Under the pieces are notes generated by a model, which saw only the letters and a list, made by a program, of their open reading frames with translations, was not told the DNA's origin and did not search any database. Position numbers and translations under genes: made by a program. From Ditylenchus dipsaci (lineage: Eukaryota; Nematoda; Chromadorea; Rhabditida; Anguinidae), in assembly GCA_004194705.1 (NCBI GenBank), contig SADC01001378.1, positions 186,001 to 250,000 on the forward strand: 64,000 nt of DNA, written 5' to 3'. Positions 3,201 to 43,500 of this stretch are shown in pieces; position 1 is the first letter of the stretch; every line of letters begins with the position of its first letter.

Positions 3201-6200
3201 CTTTATAGATAGACGACCCAATAGTACTCAATGCACCTCTGAATAAATTGTGTTATACAATTTTCGGGAATTTCAAAAAAATTAATAAAAATTATTTTCA
3301 TACTATCTCTAACGACCATGATAATTTTCCTGAATTTATACGTTTATAGTTTTCATTTTCACAGTAAAATAAAAAATATTGGTTCAGAGACTCGCCGAGT
3401 GAATCCAAACACGTGTCTATCGCAGAGCTACGTAAACTCCAGGCAGGCAAAGTGATTGACGGCAGGAAACGACACAATAGGGTAAAAGTAAGCCAGGAAA
3501 AATGTTTTGCTTATGCTAATCTCAAAACTAATGCTAATAACTGAGACTTGCTTGGACGGGAATGGTAAATGCTAGGGCTAGGATAGAAACAATAAGAATA
3601 AAATTTAAAAAGAAAGTCTTTTGCTCGTCACTAATTAGAATTTGCAGTTTCCTTGAAGGACATCTGCACAAATACCAGTGTTTGGGCTATTTGGGTTGCT
3701 GCGGTCGGCAACATGTATGCCATTCAGATGCTGATATTGTTTTCGCCAACTTATATCCGAGAGGTAAGTCAGTTCAAAGAGCTTTGAAAAACAGGTTTTT
3801 CAAGGATACCGTATTTGCTCTAATAATCGGCCACTCTCTATTAAACGGCCACTCTCTAATAAACGGCCACCCCAGAGACCTATACTAGGGTTGGCCTCCC
3901 CCCCCCCGCTTTTTGGGTGCGGGGGAGATTAGACTAAAAAAATTTGCGGGGGGGAGACGGGGGGGGAGGTGGCCAATTTTTTTTGCGGGGGGGGGAGGGG
4001 GGGGGGGGGAGCTGTGAGCGGGGGGCAGTGGGGGTGCCTGATTAATTTACAAGCCTCGGGACTGAAAATTTTTAAAACAGCAGCCTAGAATGGATCTGAA
4101 GGCTTTTGAAACACTTCTGAAGTCAAAGCTACGATATTGCCACTCCTCTGGTTCGATAAATGTTGATCCTTCTCGGCTGCCGTTCTGAAAATGACCTCAT
4201 CCGAGAATTTTTTTTCGACTGGGATTTTTGCGGGGGGTGACGGGGGTCATTTGGGTGCGGGGGGAGAAACGGGGGGGGGAGGTGGCCGATTTTTTTGCGC
4301 GGGGGGGGCGGGGGGGGTATAAGGAAAATTTGGTCAAAAAGCGGGGGGAGGGGGGGGGAGGGAGGGAGCCCAACCCTAACCTATACCTCAGTCCAGAGTC
4401 AATATTTTTCAAATCTGTCTTATGCATTTTCTTAGTTACCATGAGCCCTCTTGGTTCCACTTTTCAGATTGTGGTTGAGCACCCAAAATCTCAAAATCGA
4501 AATATTTTTTTTCGATTTTTTAGGGTTTGAAAATAAACGGCCATGGCCGATTATTACAGCAATACGGTATATTAGATTTCTTTGATTGCTGATTTCAAAA
4601 ACACAAAAATAGTTAGATTAGTCAGGTCGAAAACACAACAACACAAGTTTTCATAAATGCTTCAAAATAGCTAAAGTGGGAAATGCATGACCATCCTCCG
4701 CCATATTGAAGAACTAGGGACCATAGACGCCTATCGGCGCCTCTATCGCATTTTGAAAAAATACGCGTTTGAGCTTAAAAGAAAGCTAAGATGCTGTATT
4801 TGAGTGTTCAGGTGAGATAACGGACATAGACTTGCAAAACATAGCAGAAAATTGGGCTTGAACACAAAAATTTAGGTTCTTTTCCTTTATCGGCACCCCA
4901 CCATTCCCCCTTATAATAATTACCCTAATAATACTCTAGCAATTATGGTGGGTGCCGATAAAAGAAAAAACCCAAATTTAACCTGAATCCAGGCCAAAAT
5001 TCACCACCTCCAATTTTTGGAGGGCAAGAATTTTTTTAGAAGCATCTTCAATTACACGTGTCTGAGCTCTAAAGAAAGCTGAAATATTGTACTTGAGTGT
5101 TGCAGTGAGATATCGGACATGGGTTCGCAAAACATAGCAGAAAATTGGGCTTGAACACAAAAGTGTGACGGACGGACACAGTCCAAATACTATATAAAGA
5201 TATCCTCTGATTTCTTCTCTTCTTCTTTAAAAAATGTAAATTTTCAAAATGGCTGCTCAAAATGTAGCCTCTAGCTTTTACATTTTCTAATTTTCGAACT
5301 TTTTGTCTGAAAGTGTAGTTGAGATACAGTTCGAGATGTTCGGCTTATAACTTGATAAAAAATGACATACTTCATCAGAAAATAAATACTTAAAAATGAA
5401 TAAAAAAGACTTATTTTTTGCCCCTCTTAAAGGAGGGGTGAAAGCTGTTAAGGAGATAGTCTCGACACGAAAGGATTCACCCAAGTTTGTGTTGTTTAAA
5501 TGTAGTTTTAGAGCCTTATTTTGGCGACAACTTAGTGATGCGATGTCGGACAAAATTGTGCAAAATCAAAAGTTGTATTAGCATCATCAATATCAGAAAT
5601 TTGGAATTCCTTCAAAAAATGCCGTGAAAATTCAAATGGAAAAAGGAAAAAAACCCATCGAAAAAAGATGATAAGTCTTCTATTGCATTTCAATTGTTAG
5701 GGCATTTTTTAGAAGAATTTTTAGTTCTGATATTGCTGATGTTAATCCAACTATAATTTTGCACAAGATTGTCTGGAATCACAACACCGGATTGTCGACA
5801 AAATATGGCTCCAAAACCATATTAAAAAAAAACACAAAACTTGGAATAATCCTTTCGTGTCGAGACTATCTCCTTAACAGCTTTAAACCTCCCTTTAAAA
5901 AGCTAAAATATAGTGCTAGTTCAATATTTCAAAATTACCCTGTAATTATACTTGGGCTGGATTTGGATAATTATCCCATTTTCGGACATGTGAATCTCCA
6001 TTCACCGCAAAAATAGCATTTTTCGTAAAAACGTAAAAAGCAAACATGGGTTTTTACCCACCACTTTCTTCTAAAAATGCAATAAAAAATAAGAGTTACT
6101 CATCAAAAGTGGCAATTAATTTTTTGGACTAAAAAAACAACAGGGGGGACCAAGGCAGTTTTTTTGAATTTTACGCATAATTGGCTTAAAATTCAAAAAA

Positions 6201-8046: not shown

Positions 8047-15000
<6,954 letters not shown>

Positions 15001-16005: not shown

Positions 16006-16462
16006 CAGGGTGGCGCAATTTTTTTTAAATTTTAGAATGGCTAAAACGAATTTTTTGTTCGCTTATGGTTGCAATCGCTTTTTTGTTTGATAGCCTTTGA
16101 GCGGCCGATTTCTTTGCTACTATACCAGTGTTTTCAAAAATGGAATGGAAAATGGAATATTCCAGATTCCATTATGGAAATGGAATGGAATTCCATTCCA
16201 CCTTCAAAATGGAATGGAATTTAAATTCCATTCCATTTTGGCTCAAAATGGAATGGAATTTAAATTCCATTCCATTTTGAGGGTGGAATGGAATTCCATT
16301 CCATTTCCATAATGGAATATGGAATATTCCATTCCATTTTCAGTGGATGGAACTACTCCACATTCCGTTATATTTTCAATAGAATGGAACCATTTTTTTA
16401 TGATGAATATGCAGTTGTTTATTGGTTGCTGAATTGTCACTGCTCTTTATAGGGCTTTCAAA

Positions 16463-16963
16463 ATGAGTGCGGAAATTCCCCTTGATCAGACTTTAGCAAA
16501 GAAGCGGTCTCAAGTCTGGATCACAGTCGATGAGCTTACAGATGTATTCGGCGAAAAGATCGTAAAATGCAAAGAACATTCAAAAGATTCTAACAACAAG
16601 TGTGTGCTTTTGCTGACTATTATGTTCTATTCTTGCTTTTCAGAAACTCCAAGATTCGATGGGGCTTTAGCTGCAAACGTGGTGATTCCATTAATTTCAA
16701 TAACAGCTTTTCAAATCATTTGGTCTTTTTTCTTTGGTTTTGGCAAGCTTCGTGACATTGTCATCAAGAATGGCCTTGCTTTCGTACTGAGTCCACATTT
16801 TGTTCTATTTTTTGAGTTTTTGAAAATAATTGATTTTGGTGAAATCAATTATCGTCCGAAACTCAGACGATCTTTAAAAATGGCCAAAATTGTTGTTACA
16901 ACCTATATGATAAATACCGAAAGCAAAGAAGACACATTTTTTATTACCCAAACACACATATAA
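16463..16963 (+). CDS. short ORF inside the hAT element, unknown
   Basis: Starts MSAEIPLDQTLAKKRSQVW and continues with ITVDELTDVFGEKIVKCKEHSK. A likely intron (about 16603-16645, ending TTTTCAG) joins to SKIRWGFSCKRGDSINFNNS. The start resembles the region before or within a BED-type zinc finger, where hAT transposases bind DNA. The Cys/His spacing is not canonical, so this is only a guess. It could be a transposase N-terminus remnant or another captured fragment. Confidence 0.4.
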   Translation: MSAEIPLDQTLAKKRSQVWITVDELTDVFGEKIVKCKEHSKDSNNKCVLLLTIMFYSCFSETPRFDGALAANVVIPLISITAFQIIWSFFFGFGKLRDIVIKNGLAFVLSPHFVLFFEFLKIIDFGEINYRPKLRRSLKMAKIVVTTYMINTESKEDTFFITQTHI

Positions 16964-17083
16964 CGACCTACACACTATAACGGAACAGACAACAATAATG
17001 GTTTTCTTAGATCACCCTTCAATTTCTCTTTGCTTCCTGCAGCTCAAAGGAAATGAACCATCTCTCGCAATCAGCCTTGACTT

Positions 17084-17820
17084 TCACGGTTGCCTAGGAA
17101 TAAATGTACGTCGAAAACCATTCAACAAGAATAAAAACCGAAAAAACAAACCCAAATCCCAAATCATGACCATTGTAGCACCACTTCCAACCAAGCTAGA
17201 GCGAAGACCATAAGGAGAGCGGAACAGTGCACCAGCCATTGCAGCAGCAGCGATTGAATTTAAGTCGTCATCAGCTATAGGAAACTTCAGGCCTACATGG
17301 ATAGCCGAGTATAGGAACATGGCGACACCAGCTTGCTGAGCGAATCCACTTCCATGTTTGACAGTAGCACTGGCGAGACGAGTCATGTAAGGTCGAGTAC
17401 GCTGTAAAATCAAGTTGATGAGTGGACCAGAACCACAATGCAGAAAATAACTCACTAGCTTCCTTGTTTCGGCATTAAACATTTCTCCGCCAAGTCCACG
17501 AGCACAATTAACACCAAAGGCACCACCAACAACCACACCGATTTGACCAAGGACCAGCTCGAACTTGCCTCTTCCATGCTCATTGCCTTCCGGGAGAATA
17601 TACTGAGGCTGGGAATCGCGGAATTGACGGATCCATCTAGAAAAAGAAGCGACATGGAAAAGCCGCAGGAAAAAAAACTAGAAATCACCTGTAAGTAGGG
17701 AGTCATCTGAACACGCAATGGCACACCGGAATGCTTCAGCGAATCAAGGGCATAAGTTGGCATTGGCATCAGATCTTGCTCAAAGAGATCGATAGTCTCG
17801 AACAGCTCCGATTTGACCAT
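17084..17820 (-). pseudogene. TIM23-like mitochondrial inner-membrane translocase, copy carried by hAT element
   Basis: TIM23 is the channel subunit importing presequence proteins into the matrix. The start ATG at 17820 gives MVKSELFETIDLFEQDL. Then comes the family signature SGVPLRVQMTPYLQ, a 52-bp intron, MDPS, QYILPEGNEHGRGKFELVLG, GGAFGVNCARGLGGE, a 54-bp intron (GTGAGT..TTTTACAG), FAQQAGVAMFLYSAIHVGL, DDDLNSIAAAAMAGALFRSP, and YGLRSSLVGSGATMVMI. The four-helix Tim17/22/23 domain is present. Introns show capture at DNA level, not by reverse transcription. The frame breaks just after MDP: matching the usual spacing needs two missing bases, and this site is not a homopolymer. The tail after MVMI differs from the family. 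I therefore call it a probable pseudogene; a functional gene with an assembly error is possible. Confidence 0.75.
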
Positions 17821-17904
17821 GTGATTGCCGGCAAAGAAAATGAACAACTAAAAGAATGAAAAATGACCGAATACAAGCAGAACCCAACCAGCTAATATTC
17901 CGAC

Positions 17905-17998
17905 AAGATTCGATTTGAGGGCGTGAATAATAAATTTGAGGGCGTAAATAATTAATTTGAGGGCGTAAATGAGCATTTTGAGGGCGCAAATGAATTTT
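17905..17998. repeat. about 20-bp tandem repeat, four to five units
   Basis: Units near aatttgagggcgtaaataa repeat with small changes just upstream of the TIM23 copy and within the hAT element. Confidence 0.7.
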
Positions 17999-18839
17999 AG
18001 CCCTTAATCATAATCTTTCTAACGAATACGTAGAAAATTATGTATGGATAAGAATAGATTACAGAACAGAATGATGTGGTTCCATTCCATTTTTAAAATA
18101 GGGAAATGGAATGGAATATTCCATTTTCCATTATGGAAATGGAATGGAATATTCCATATTCCATTATGGAAATGGAATGGAATTCCATTCCACCTTCAAA
18201 ATGGAATGGAATTTAAATTCCATTCCATTTTGAGCCAAAATGGAATGGAATTTAAATTCCATTCCATTTTGAGGGTGGAATGGAATGGAATCCATTTTTG
18301 CATGGAATATTCCATTTTCCATTCCATTTTTGAAAACACTGTACTATACTTGTGTTCAAACGTCTGGATTTTTGACAAAAATAATTCTATTTAAGTGAAA
18401 AGATAATTTTCTCGCGCCAACAGAAGGCTTTATGTGTGGTTTTGTAAGCCAAATACGAGTCCAAGTCCACCTGGAATGTTACCGAAATAAATCCAACCGA
18501 AAATGTTAGTGAATTTTCACCAAAATACAATTGAGGAATATTTTTTCTCAGATCTAGTTATTCCTCCGCTCTAGTTAAAAAAAGATGGTTGAATATCTTT
18601 AGCCAGACATTCACACTGCTTTTCCAAGTTCAAAAAGTCAATTTTCTCGAAAGTCAAAACTATATTTTTGCTCAGTTAGAACTATTCGTGTTAAAATTCA
18701 AAACTTATAAAAACAAGTTTGGTACCAAACAAAACGGCCATTCAAGGGCTATAAAATAAAATAAAAAATCGCAACAACAAGAACAAAAAGTTTTGTTTTA
18801 ATCAATCTTAAAATAAACAAAAAAGTTTGAGCCACCCTG

Positions 18840-31377: not shown

Positions 31378-31845
31378 CTGCATATTTTAGAAGAAGATGT
31401 CTTAGGTAACAACATTACTAGCACACAGTCTAATTACTCAAACAACAACTGAACAGCTAGCCAGCAATTACATATGTAATGTCCCCACCACCCTCATTGC
31501 TATAGTTCAGGTGTCCTAGGACAAACTGTCCTAATCACTCGCATGTGCCACCACTGATATGGTTATTATTATTACCAATGTTTCAAAAAAGTCAGCTTTT
31601 ATTGTTGTTGTTCGTCCTAAAAGTCTGATAATAAACCAAACCAACTAATTTAAATACGAGCGGTATTTAGTGAACATGTTTTCACAATTTATATAACATG
31701 TAACTATTTCTGAGTTACAAGCACATATAAGGGGTGATCATCTTTTTCCGTCTCTTCAAAATCGAAAAGTTTAGTTAAAAATGCCGATTTTAATTACGGT
31801 CGGACACAATGGGATCAGTGTTGTCAATTTTGGTTACTAACTTAC
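31378..31845. promoter_or_regulatory. region upstream of LACT exon 1, nothing specific
   Basis: Either the promoter or an intron before an unseen first exon. No recognisable element or ORF. Confidence 0.25.
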
Positions 31846-32345
31846 CCTGCTAAAAGCTTTTGGTCATTTTTTAGCGGTTTCTTCAACAAACTTTTTTGGC
31901 ATACTGCTAACAGGAGTTTTCAGGAAAAGCATTTGAAAAAAAAAAGTAAGAAAAGCTTTTTGCAAAAGCTTTTGAGTTCTTTATGCCAAGAAAAGCTTTT
32001 TGCAAAAGCTTTTGGTTCTAAATGCAACAAAAGCTTTTTGTCAAAAGCTTTGAGTCCTTTATGCCAAGAAAAGCTTTTTGCAAAAGCTTTTGGGTCTAAA
32101 TGCCAACAAAGCTTTTTGTCAAAGCTTTTGAGTTCTTTATGCCAAGAAAAGCTTTTTGCAAAAGCTTTTGGTGTACCAATGCCAGGGAAGCTATTTGCCA
32201 AAAGCTTTTGGTTCTAAATACTATGAAAAGCTTTTGCAAAAGCTTTTGGGTACGAATGCAAAGGAAAGCTTTTTGCCAAAAGCTTTTGGGTCTAAATACT
32301 ATGAAAAGCTTTTGCAAAAGCTTTAGGTTCTAAAAACCATGAAAA
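31846..32345. repeat. AAAAGCTTTT-type tandem array, about 10 units
   Basis: The word aaaagctttttgcaaaagctttt recurs every 40-60 bases with linkers such as gggtctaaatgccaac and gagttctttatgccaag. Each unit is palindromic. The open frames over it in several phases (KSFCKSFW-like) are repeat artefacts. It may be the sub-terminal region of an unbounded transposon. Confidence 0.8.
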
Positions 32346-40500: not shown

Positions 40501-43500
40501 GTAGTCAGTCAGTCAACCAGCCACCCAGTGTCACTATAATAAAAAAAAGTATGGGTGAACTAGAATAGAAATGAGGGGTTGGATGCACATATATACACTT
40601 TGCAGCAGCAGGGGCAAATGAAAAGGGAATCGCCTCTGACTAGTAAGTGGAGGGCTAATAAAGGGGAGTCAGAGCCTAGCTCATAAACATTGCAGCTAGC
40701 TAAGCCCAGGCCAGCTAGCTAGTAGTAATATTGATGAGAAACAAGGGCGTTTATTTTGGCATTTCAAGGCCAGAATATGAGCTTGGTGCATATTTTTGGC
40801 CTGATTAAATGAGGGGTAGGGTTTATTAGAAGCGTGCCAGATGAGTCCTACACTTTTCGGTTTTGGGCTACTGCTGCTAATTTGTTTTTCTTTTTGGTCT
40901 TCCAGCTAATTTTTGTGGGCTTACTTGCTTGGACAATTAAGTTGGGGCTGTTTTTTATTGCTACGTGTGCAAAAAAGTTTTTTTTAGGTCTCTTTGCTAA
41001 TTTATTGGGGAGAAGAACTGAACTAGTAAAGTGTTCTTTGGAAGAATTTCGAAGGTTTTTAGTCAAATCGAAAATCCGAAATATATATTGAAATTTTTTT
41101 TGCGTGAATGATCGTTTTACTTAAATTTTTTAATCCGTGCTTTTAAAATGTGAAAAACTGCTTTGTTTATAACAAAATTAATTTATAAAATTCTAAATAG
41201 GAGGGCAATTTCTTTAACAAAATGCTTTGAAAGATGTGCTGAGATCTGGTCTAAATCAGGCTTGCTGAGATGTAATCCGAACAAATTTTTTATTTCTTAA
41301 TTTTTTTTCAGTATTTTGCTCAAAATAGCCATAACTCAGCAATAACCATAATTTAGACCAGATTTAATCAGATTTTGATTCATAAAAACATCTGAACAGT
41401 TGCTTTTTAAGTATTTTTTTGTTCCAAAATTGATGGTTTGTCATTAAAAAAAAACCGCAAAAAGATTGACAATATACCATAGCGGTTAACACATTTTGTT
41501 TAATTCCGCCACCCTTACTTTGAGGGTCTGTCGGAGCAGAGTAAATATTTTGCAAAGCTGTTTATTGCGTTTATTAACACCCCGAGCTCTACCGATTCGG
41601 CTATTTAGATTTTGAATTTTATACCGAAAATTGAGAGATGGACCTGAAAATTTTAGGCTAGAATTTTTCCGATTTTCGGAGGGCTAAGTTCCCTGAGGGG
41701 GGGGGGGTGGTGCGGAATTAGAAAAAACACGGTTTGTCTGACCTGGTCTCGAATACCTAATAATACCTACCGTTGAGTTGCATAGCTTCTGGAAGGGTTT
41801 TAGCATCCGCAGAATTGGGTGGTCCCTGTCCAGCCTTGGTGTAAGCATGCACTTTGAAGCGGTAGTCAGAGTCAAAGTCCAGGTCATCTAACCTAAGTTC
41901 AGTCATTCCAATAGGCACTTCTTTCTCCTTTTCACACGAGATTATCTGAAATATTGCTGAATAGAAGCTGTCTTTCAGAGAAACACAAAATAGGGTCACC
42001 TCTCCAGTAGATTCCCTGGTTTTGCATTTGACAACTCCAAAACGGGTCAGTTTGCCGTTAGCACTAAAATTATTAATTGGTTTGAGATAAGTTAGTTTGC
42101 GATTGCTCACTTCCTTGGATCGTCCATTTGAGCACAACCACTCCTCGTTCATCCCCATCTTTATTGTTCATGGATAGGCCTGTAGACCACGCACTTGGGT
42201 CGGTACTGGAAAATTAAAGTACTGTTTAAGTGGTTTTCTAAAAAGTCCGTGTTTAACAGATCATGAAAACAGCTTTTGACTATTTTTTATCATTCATTTT
42301 GCGCTAATTTTTCTGTGTTTTGATAAGTATTTAGAACACGGTTCTCATCCGTCCTTTTTAAAAAGATTTGTCCTTTTTTGGGACTCAAAATCCTTTTTAT
42401 TTTTAAAGTTTTCAGTCAAAATCTTTTTTTTGCTTCAAAATAGCAATAAGCACTGGATATCACTGGATGACTCGAGGAATAAAATAAGTGACGGATTGAT
42501 CAATTATGCTCGAAAAATTTAGTGCCCACAAAATTGTCAAAACCCTAAAATATAGGCCAACCGAAACCAAATAAAGTCAGTCTTGCCGGTGCCCGGCAAG
42601 ACTAGCCCTAACTTCAAAAAATGTTCAAACTTCAGCCTACCTCCTTCCTTAGTCCTAAATGAGATGGGTTCTGTAGGGCGCCTTCATTTTGACCATTCAA
42701 CACTGAGATGATGGCATAGTTCAATGAGTTAGGTTTTAGACCAGCTATAGTTCCTGATGTTGCTGTGGGAGCAAATATCACACTTTTCCTGTTCAAGGCT
42801 GAATTGGAGCTTAAGTGTCTCCTGACCAGCGACCTAGAATAATGCCTCTTTTGCCTAGCCTCCTTGAAGTCCACCTCTTCTTCTAGCTGAGTCTCGTCGT
42901 CATCAAACCAGTAGGTAATCTTGTAGCCAGTAAAGTTGCCTTGCACTTTGGATGGATCTACAGCATCCCAAAAAAAGTCTGCAGTGGTGGCAGTAATGTC
43001 CTTAACCCGGAAGTTGGTTGGAGTGACTCCTACAAAATTCAATACCATATCTCAATACCATATCCATTGTGAATTGTGTTTTTGACCTAATTTTTGCAGA
43101 CTACTCTTAGGCAAGTCACCCCTCATTTTGTAGCTCATCTCACTGACTACAAATAGGTGGTAACTTGCCTGAGAAAAGTCTTTAAAAATGAACCTGGATC
43201 TCCCTCTCCTGTCCTCCCTCCACAGTCTCTGGAGCGACAAGGGACTCGCCCAGCTTATTCTTGGCTCTGACCTGCACCTCATAGGGTTCCCATGGATGTC
43301 GGTCACCAAGGTCTATGGTAAGTTTTTCAGCAAAGGGGTCGTCCACTTGGATGCTCTTCCACTCGCTGTCGTCTTTCTGAAGATGAGCCTATAGTTGTTA
43401 TAGGCTTTTTTAATAGCAGGTTCAACGCTATGTTTCAATAATTGACGCAGAAATAAACAAAATAAAAAATAAAAACCGCAGAGCGGCGGCACTTATGTAC

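Follow-up and report, generated by a model that had tools for sequence, protein, structure and literature searches.

The window analysed here, a stretch of 64,000 nt from the genome of the plant-parasitic nematode Ditylenchus dipsaci (assembly GCA_004194705.1, contig SADC01001378.1, positions 186,001 to 250,000 of the forward strand), contains a non-autonomous hAT transposon inside which lies, on the minus strand, an intron-bearing copy of the mitochondrial import gene TIM23. We put the probability at roughly 90% that TIM23 was captured by a Mutator-type element, that this element inserted into the hAT element, and that the cargo was spread by both. The order of the nesting, the end of the inner element lying exactly against hAT sequence, copies of the inner element free of hAT sequence, empty target sites and the introns kept in the cargo carry this reading. 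Counting copies of both transposons, the cargo is present at about a dozen genomic positions. Coordinates are collected in Table 1.

The outer hAT element

The outer element belongs to the hAT superfamily. Its ends, CAGTGTTTTCA...TGAAAACACTG, form a perfect 39-bp inverted pair starting with CAGTGTTTTCA, which is extended by a subterminal inverted repeat of 153 nt (98% complementary); directly outside both ends the 8-base duplication TACTATAC is exact. A hAT element with exact inverted ends and a perfect 8-base duplication had already been proposed in the initial annotation, and both features hold. Short terminal inverted repeats beginning CA(G).. are what we take to be the consensus of hAT ends, and CAGTGTTTTCA fits it. 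The hAT dimerisation domain (PF05699) was matched by a piece of a relative on contig C854 (28.9 bits, cut-off 21.4), and the same motif recurs in further relatives; from other pieces came either nothing or weak matches (DUF4371, 17 bits, cut-off 32.1). The hAT interior to the left of the cargo (16470-16796), for which a Pfam search returned no match of its own, is probably what remains of the 5′ portion of the hAT element's own gene.

In the genome searched (227.0 Mb, 1359 contigs), the window element recurs from one end to the other on five more contigs: C1355, C270 and C1046, and, with internal deletions, C1299 and C73; C1344 carries a shortened (truncated) hAT-TIM23 copy, and C1274 a hAT part without TIM23. 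The copy on C1355 is the window's own insertion on a second contig (99.85% identity over 6.5 kb including the flanks, with the same TACTATAC), so that the hAT-TIM23 copies amount to five full loci and a truncated one. Second contigs for one locus are to be expected because the published assembly, built from PacBio reads with CANU (227,234,012 bp in 1,394 scaffolds), exceeds the haploid genome size of 160–170 Mb determined by flow cytometry (PMC6929663). An exact 8-bp duplication is present at four of the five full loci, and outside the window its sequence is GCTATATC (C270), CTCGAATT (C1299) and GCTGCTTC (C73); at the fifth (C1046) it is exact over 7 bp. Since other copies with the same ends thus exist and carry their own, different duplications, the flanking TACTATAC match is not due to chance. 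Exact 8-bp duplications also flank six of the 15 TIM23-less hAT relatives fetched (L021, L026, L027, L035, L036 and L038), while the remaining nine show no 8-bp pair within the stretch fetched. The longer hAT relatives match positions 1-459, 461-599 and 1878-2216 of the window element and differ in their interiors. On C1299 (L033), another CAGTGTTTTCA-type end with a different subterminal sequence lies at position 4276, about 50 bp past the hAT copy.

The inner, probably Mutator-like element

Positions 681-1880 of the hAT element recur on seven contigs (C624, C530, C311, C782, C1250, C291 and C499), and in none of these seven copies was there a match to the rest of the hAT element. There, the TIM23 copy is part of a different unit of 1.85 kb, which starts with GGCTA, ends with TAGCC and has inverted arms composed of 21-bp units (in the C624 copy, 91 nt and 95% complementary). 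Duplications of 9 or 10 bp flank five of the seven copies: GATAAATTT (C624), ATTTTGAAAC (C530), GTTCAATAC (C311), CAAATAAAT (C782) and TTATTTGTT (C1250). The C291 copy lacks its left end; the copies on C499 and C1250 have one flank in common (97.5% over 2 kb) and not the other.

Relatives of the inner element without TIM23 have the same ends and contain transposase relics (L041-L047); by script, 9-bp duplications were found for six of these seven, and in L043 a repetitive flank kept the duplication from being delimited. A further case, on C1248, has the duplication GAACCAAAT and a right end resembling the fragment in the window. Ten TIM23-less relatives (L041-L047 and L053-L055) have their interior in common. 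No other host-gene cargo was seen in a sample of the family (40 of 3139 candidates scored). The inner element is likely to be Mutator/Foldback-like, that is, a "Pack-MULE". One relative, L045, has an added stretch (879-1253) with Brinker/CENP-B-like helix-turn-helix (HTH) matches (PF09607, 24.1 bits, cut-off 23.4), which is probably another transposon nested there. In the window, about 2 kb from the hAT element, a 97-bp stretch (14322-14418) is 75% identical to the Mutator-like terminal repeat; it is another, probably older Mutator-like relic.

Nesting and empty sites

At the right joint in the window the inner element ends at 18002 with its terminus TTTTAGCC, and CTTAATCATAA of the hAT element follows directly; cargo-less hAT copies are uninterrupted at this site, reading TATTCCTACTTAATCATAA in three of them and differing by one base in the fourth. 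At the left joint, near 16800, hAT sequence passes into the interior of the inner element within about 10 bases. The hAT copies thus have inner-element sequence on both sides of TIM23, and in the window the inner element is without its left third and the hAT element without its middle.

Empty target sites were sought for three insertions (C270, C624 and C73), with the flanks joined by one copy of the duplication as a query of 300 bases; all three have such matches. For C270, 40 of 48 matches cover essentially all 300 bases at 88–89% identity, and for C624, 28 of 45 cover at least bases 13–300, the best with 98%. For C73, several matches run contiguously across the joint at 80–81% (e.g., over bases 1–236), and none beyond the insertion's own locus covers all 300 bases. 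One empty copy per site was read across its joint: that for C624, on C86, has a single GATAAATTT, and in those for C270 and C73, on C1339 and C20, the duplicated bases have diverged.

The TIM23 cargo and its likely source

The assignment of the cargo to TIM23 stands: the Tim17/22/23 family (PF02466) matches the locus in the window directly (38 bits, over cut-off), and nematode TIM23 proteins are the best named matches in the protein search; a search of solved structures gave no match at E 0.001. Its extent, given as nearly 740 bp in the initial annotation, is larger, the alignable TIM23 sequence covering 843 bp from about 16932 to 17774. In the TIM23 gene on contig C360 this block starts at codon 40 and takes in the whole 3′-untranslated region, with three introns at the same positions. 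A poly(A) signal-like motif is present at 16933-16945; the GC content of the cargo is 45%, that of the window 37%. In 41 of 42 introns (14 sequences including C360) GT..AG is kept, the exception being intron 3 of the C291 copy, which leaves 38 of the 39 transposon-borne introns with their splice sites. Retained introns had been taken as a sign of capture at the DNA level, and we draw the same conclusion from them. The cargo is less complete than "nearly whole": the window copy lacks codons 1 to 39 of the C360 gene, and in place of the N-terminus of the protein stand 16 codons of subterminal sequence of the inner element, or 17 in most other copies.

A second donor gene for the fused 5′ stretch (17773-17912) was considered and rejected: with all 15 candidates scored, the stretch occurs beyond the 13 TIM23 carriers only on C1274 and C393. 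Both matches adjoin an inner-element end and lack TIM23, for which reason the stretch is taken to be subterminal sequence of the transposon.

Table 1. Features of the nested element in the window.
Feature	Coordinates	Strand	Basis
Left 8-bp target site duplication, TACTATAC	16118..16125	.	directly outside the left end
Non-autonomous hAT element with TIM23 block, 2216 bp	16126..18341	.	ends, duplications, family domain
Left arm of perfect 39-bp terminal inverted repeat	16126..16164	+	inverted-repeat analysis
hAT interior left of the cargo, common to TIM23-less copies	16470..16796	+	
Left junction, hAT to Mutator-like interior; deletion joint, good to ~10 bp	16796..16808	.	
Right-hand fragment of the 1.85-kb Mutator-like element carrying TIM23	16806..18002	-	
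TIM23-derived stretch, part of exon 1 to end of 3′-untranslated region, three introns	16932..17774	-	
Exon 4 start, after the third intron	17075..17093	-	
Exon 3 (Tim17/22/23 domain)	17152..17401	-	
Exon 2, with the shared two-base loss	17456..17636	-	
Exon 1: 16 transposon-derived codons (17773-17820), then in-frame TIM23 codons from LMPMPTYA	17689..17820	-	
Terminal repeat of the Mutator-like element, 21-bp units, ending TAGCC at 18002	17913..18002	-	
Right part of hAT, abutting the Mutator-like end	18003..18341	+	
Right arm of perfect 39-bp terminal inverted repeat	18303..18341	-	inverted-repeat analysis
Right 8-bp target site duplication, TACTATAC	18342..18349	.	directly outside the right end

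The initial annotation had also suggested looking for a TIM23 locus outside any transposon, and the genome has one, on C360. A search with the TIM23 protein matched 14 contigs, namely C360 and 13 with transposon-borne copies; the 14 matches of a genome search with PF02466 comprise C360, eleven transposon-borne copies and two outside the TIM23 set (C469 and C352). The C360 gene still has the beginning of its exon 1 (MLSYLGFG...), absent from the transposon copies, and in the 5 kb fetched around it the match to the element is confined to the TIM23 part. Read through one frame break, its translation matches PF02466 with an E value of 1.9e-12. In their common stretches it is identical to UniProt entry A0A915D9V7 from D. 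dipsaci (listed in the search with 97% identity over 47% of the query); the public gene model behind that entry leaves out exon 2 and some of exon 1, seemingly owing to the frame break in the assembly. Intron 2 is 186 bp long in C360 vs 54–56 bp in the transposon copies, and the extra stretch (L017, 2436-2593) appears to have been inserted later. We take C360 to be the likely source of the cargo.

Fate of the cargo

When the copies are spliced as in the C360 gene, 11 of the 13 transposon-borne frames stop at or before residue 108, that of the window at residue 63. The ATG is lost in three of the 13. A loss of two bases in exon 2, derived when judged against nematode TIM23 proteins, is found in all 13 aligned copies (in C311 within a larger gap). 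Changes in exon 3 at codon positions 1/2/3 number 19/16/23 among the transposon copies; a comparison of the gene with the hAT consensus gives 4/3/10. The cargo copies would therewith most likely be passengers without TIM23 function, and the window copy, judged by its sequence, is a passenger pseudogene whose frame is broken in exon 2.

A competitor of the passenger view holds that TIM23 in the transposons works as a chimeric gene with an N-terminus from the transposon, or did so while it was spreading, and that one hAT copy may still be expressed. Its appeal lies in the 16–17 transposon codons being fused in frame to TIM23, in the splice sites kept in almost every intron and in the poly(A) signal-like motif; moreover, single-base calls are uncertain in a noisy long-read PacBio draft with single-base indels scattered among the copies, and more or fewer copies may be open than counted. 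The early stops in most copies, the missing start codons, the two-base loss common to all and changes spread nearly evenly across codon positions speak against it, and we regard a working chimera as unlikely.

Likely order of events

The TIM23 copy would have entered the Mutator-type element by replication-linked gap filling or template switching, the copied gene replacing part of the internal region while both ends of the element were kept. The TIM23-carrying inner element would then have inserted into a hAT element; an internal deletion may have removed its left part together with the middle of the hAT element, and the hAT element thus shortened would have spread the cargo. Both elements being non-autonomous, they were presumably moved by transposases encoded elsewhere. 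Divergence is 0–3.2% among the hAT copies, 1.7–9.4% among the Mutator-like pairs listed and 6.1–8.5% between the hAT copy on C270 and the seven Mutator-like ones. In the tree, the hAT copies fall into a single clade (support 0.96) that excludes C360.

Several observations weigh against this reconstruction. The transposase relics of the inner family remain below the curated cut-offs (FAR1 15.6 bits, cut-off 28.1; SWIM 17.3 bits, cut-off 19.6), so that the assignment as Mutator-like rests mainly on the 9-bp duplications and the composite long ends; comparison by eye of the 115 genome matches of PF10551 (MULE transposase) tied none to the inner family. A hAT element with a complete inner element, the intermediate, was not seen among the copies found in the genome, and the clade of Mutator-like copies is weak, with a support of 0.775. 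The frame of the C360 gene stops at residue 134 at a one-base break, which is likely an assembly error, and the integrity of the source is assumed. As for the passenger part, two frames are long: that of C624 is open for 186 codons with a stop at residue 187, and that of C270 (L031), the sole open one of 13, runs for 204 codons to the natural end of TIM23, its frame having been opened by a further single-base difference and its exon 2 containing a rewritten stretch.

The initial annotation had the hAT element itself as captor. On that reading, TIM23 would have been taken by the hAT element directly from the gene and the Mutator-like copies would be secondary; the hAT copies are, after all, genuine transposed units with TIM23 inside. 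However, the cargo is bounded on both sides by Mutator-like sequence and on one by the exact terminus of that element, and the order of capture is hard to reverse because the separate copies of the inner element are free of hAT sequence. The hAT element as direct captor, very improbable on these grounds, was rejected since the terminus of the inner element bounds the cargo.

There is even less to be said for nesting produced by misassembly or collapsed repeats. The PacBio/CANU draft is oversized, at 227 Mb where flow cytometry gives 160–170 Mb (PMC6929663), and the copies show scattered single-base indels; yet the same joints turn up on several contigs whose flanks and duplications differ, and there are empty sites as well, which leaves an artefact hardly credible. 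That TIM23 was captured twice independently, once per superfamily, would account for its presence in both and is next to impossible, as the breakpoints, the fused transposon codons and the loss of two bases in exon 2 are the same in both sets. Capture by the Mutator-type element followed by its insertion into the hAT element is the history we prefer.

Other features of the window

On the minus strand at 41757-43051, open frames with matches to fibronectin type III domains are present; PF00041 is matched over cut-off at 42632-43051 (34.8 bits) and below its cut-off of 25 at 41757-42167 (21.4 bits). This may be a gene of the L1CAM/neuroglian type, as we presume. An open frame of tandem SLCQEKLFAKAFGS-like units lies at 31738-32217.

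Relation to known cases of gene capture

The comparisons below draw on portions of the papers cited. Host-gene fragments between the terminal inverted repeats of animal DNA transposons (Pack-TIRs) were surveyed in 100 genomes by Tan et al. (2021, PMC8277862), with 370 cases, of which 208 are in hAT elements and four are multicopy; a TIM23-carrying hAT element is unusual for an animal, as had been supposed. According to that survey, most animal captures by cut-and-paste transposons are single-copy and without transposition, multicopy Pack-MULEs being a plant phenomenon; no Pack-MULE was found in animal reference genomes, and Ssk-FB4 is a Pack-MULE of Drosophila populations (PMC8277862). The elements described here resemble animal Pack-TIRs such as Pack-hAT-N8_XT of Xenopus and Ssk-FB4 in that a host gene lies between the ends, the duplications are distinct, the source is distant and the cargo is richer in GC (here 45% vs 37%); they differ from them in that one cargo, with four exons and three introns, is carried by two superfamilies instead of one.

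Close in host and structure is Tm1, a Mutator/Foldback family of root-knot nematodes (PMC3169594): it, too, is from plant-parasitic nematodes, has composite inverted ends consisting of short tandem repeats as well as 9-bp duplications, and has non-autonomous derivatives that may hold host sequence (a histone hairpin). The terminal units of Tm1 are 14 bp long, those here 21 bp, and a short hairpin motif stands there against a multi-exon gene here; a hand-over to a hAT element is not described in the portion considered (PMC3169594). Turmoil-1 of Caenorhabditis elegans is likewise a nematode transposon with pieces of two protein-coding genes; unlike the cargo here, these sit in the inverted repeats, and the sections at hand involve no second superfamily (PMC2572040). 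Between their ends, plant Pack-MULE and Pack-TYPE elements contain gene fragments that were acquired at the DNA level and multiplied by transposition; small elements of a single kind have also fused and been re-mobilised there, and the parts of that account available describe no passing of cargo between superfamilies (PMC8903248).

In plant-parasitic nematodes, hAT and MULE-MuDR are among the predominant DNA transposons, with transposons at 55.7% for D. dipsaci; the string "captur" does not occur in the main text of this survey (PMC11118728). The portions of PMC10015627 and PMC3903597 at hand contain nothing on relays, and searches of the open-licence literature, judged mostly by titles and the beginnings of abstracts, brought up neither this capture of TIM23 nor any animal cargo relayed from one superfamily to another. 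An animal with a multicopy Pack-MULE-like element that relayed its cargo to a hAT element would be a rare case of gene capture by transposons.

One may ask whether the cargo helps both superfamilies, in that host-like TIM23 sequence shields the carriers from small-RNA silencing and the hand-over was selected. We consider this unlikely; if true, silencing the carriers would risk silencing an essential gene, and the cargo would be a portable protection for transposons. Independently of this, the case offers a natural test of whether host-gene cargo alters the treatment of a transposon by small RNAs. It makes one capture traceable from the likely source gene to a first and then a second carrier, with joints at or near base resolution. 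A captured gene can, on this evidence, leave its captor: nesting and deletion would hand the cargo to an unrelated superfamily, which then spreads it, and this may be a route for exon shuffling and for the formation of chimeric genes in animals.

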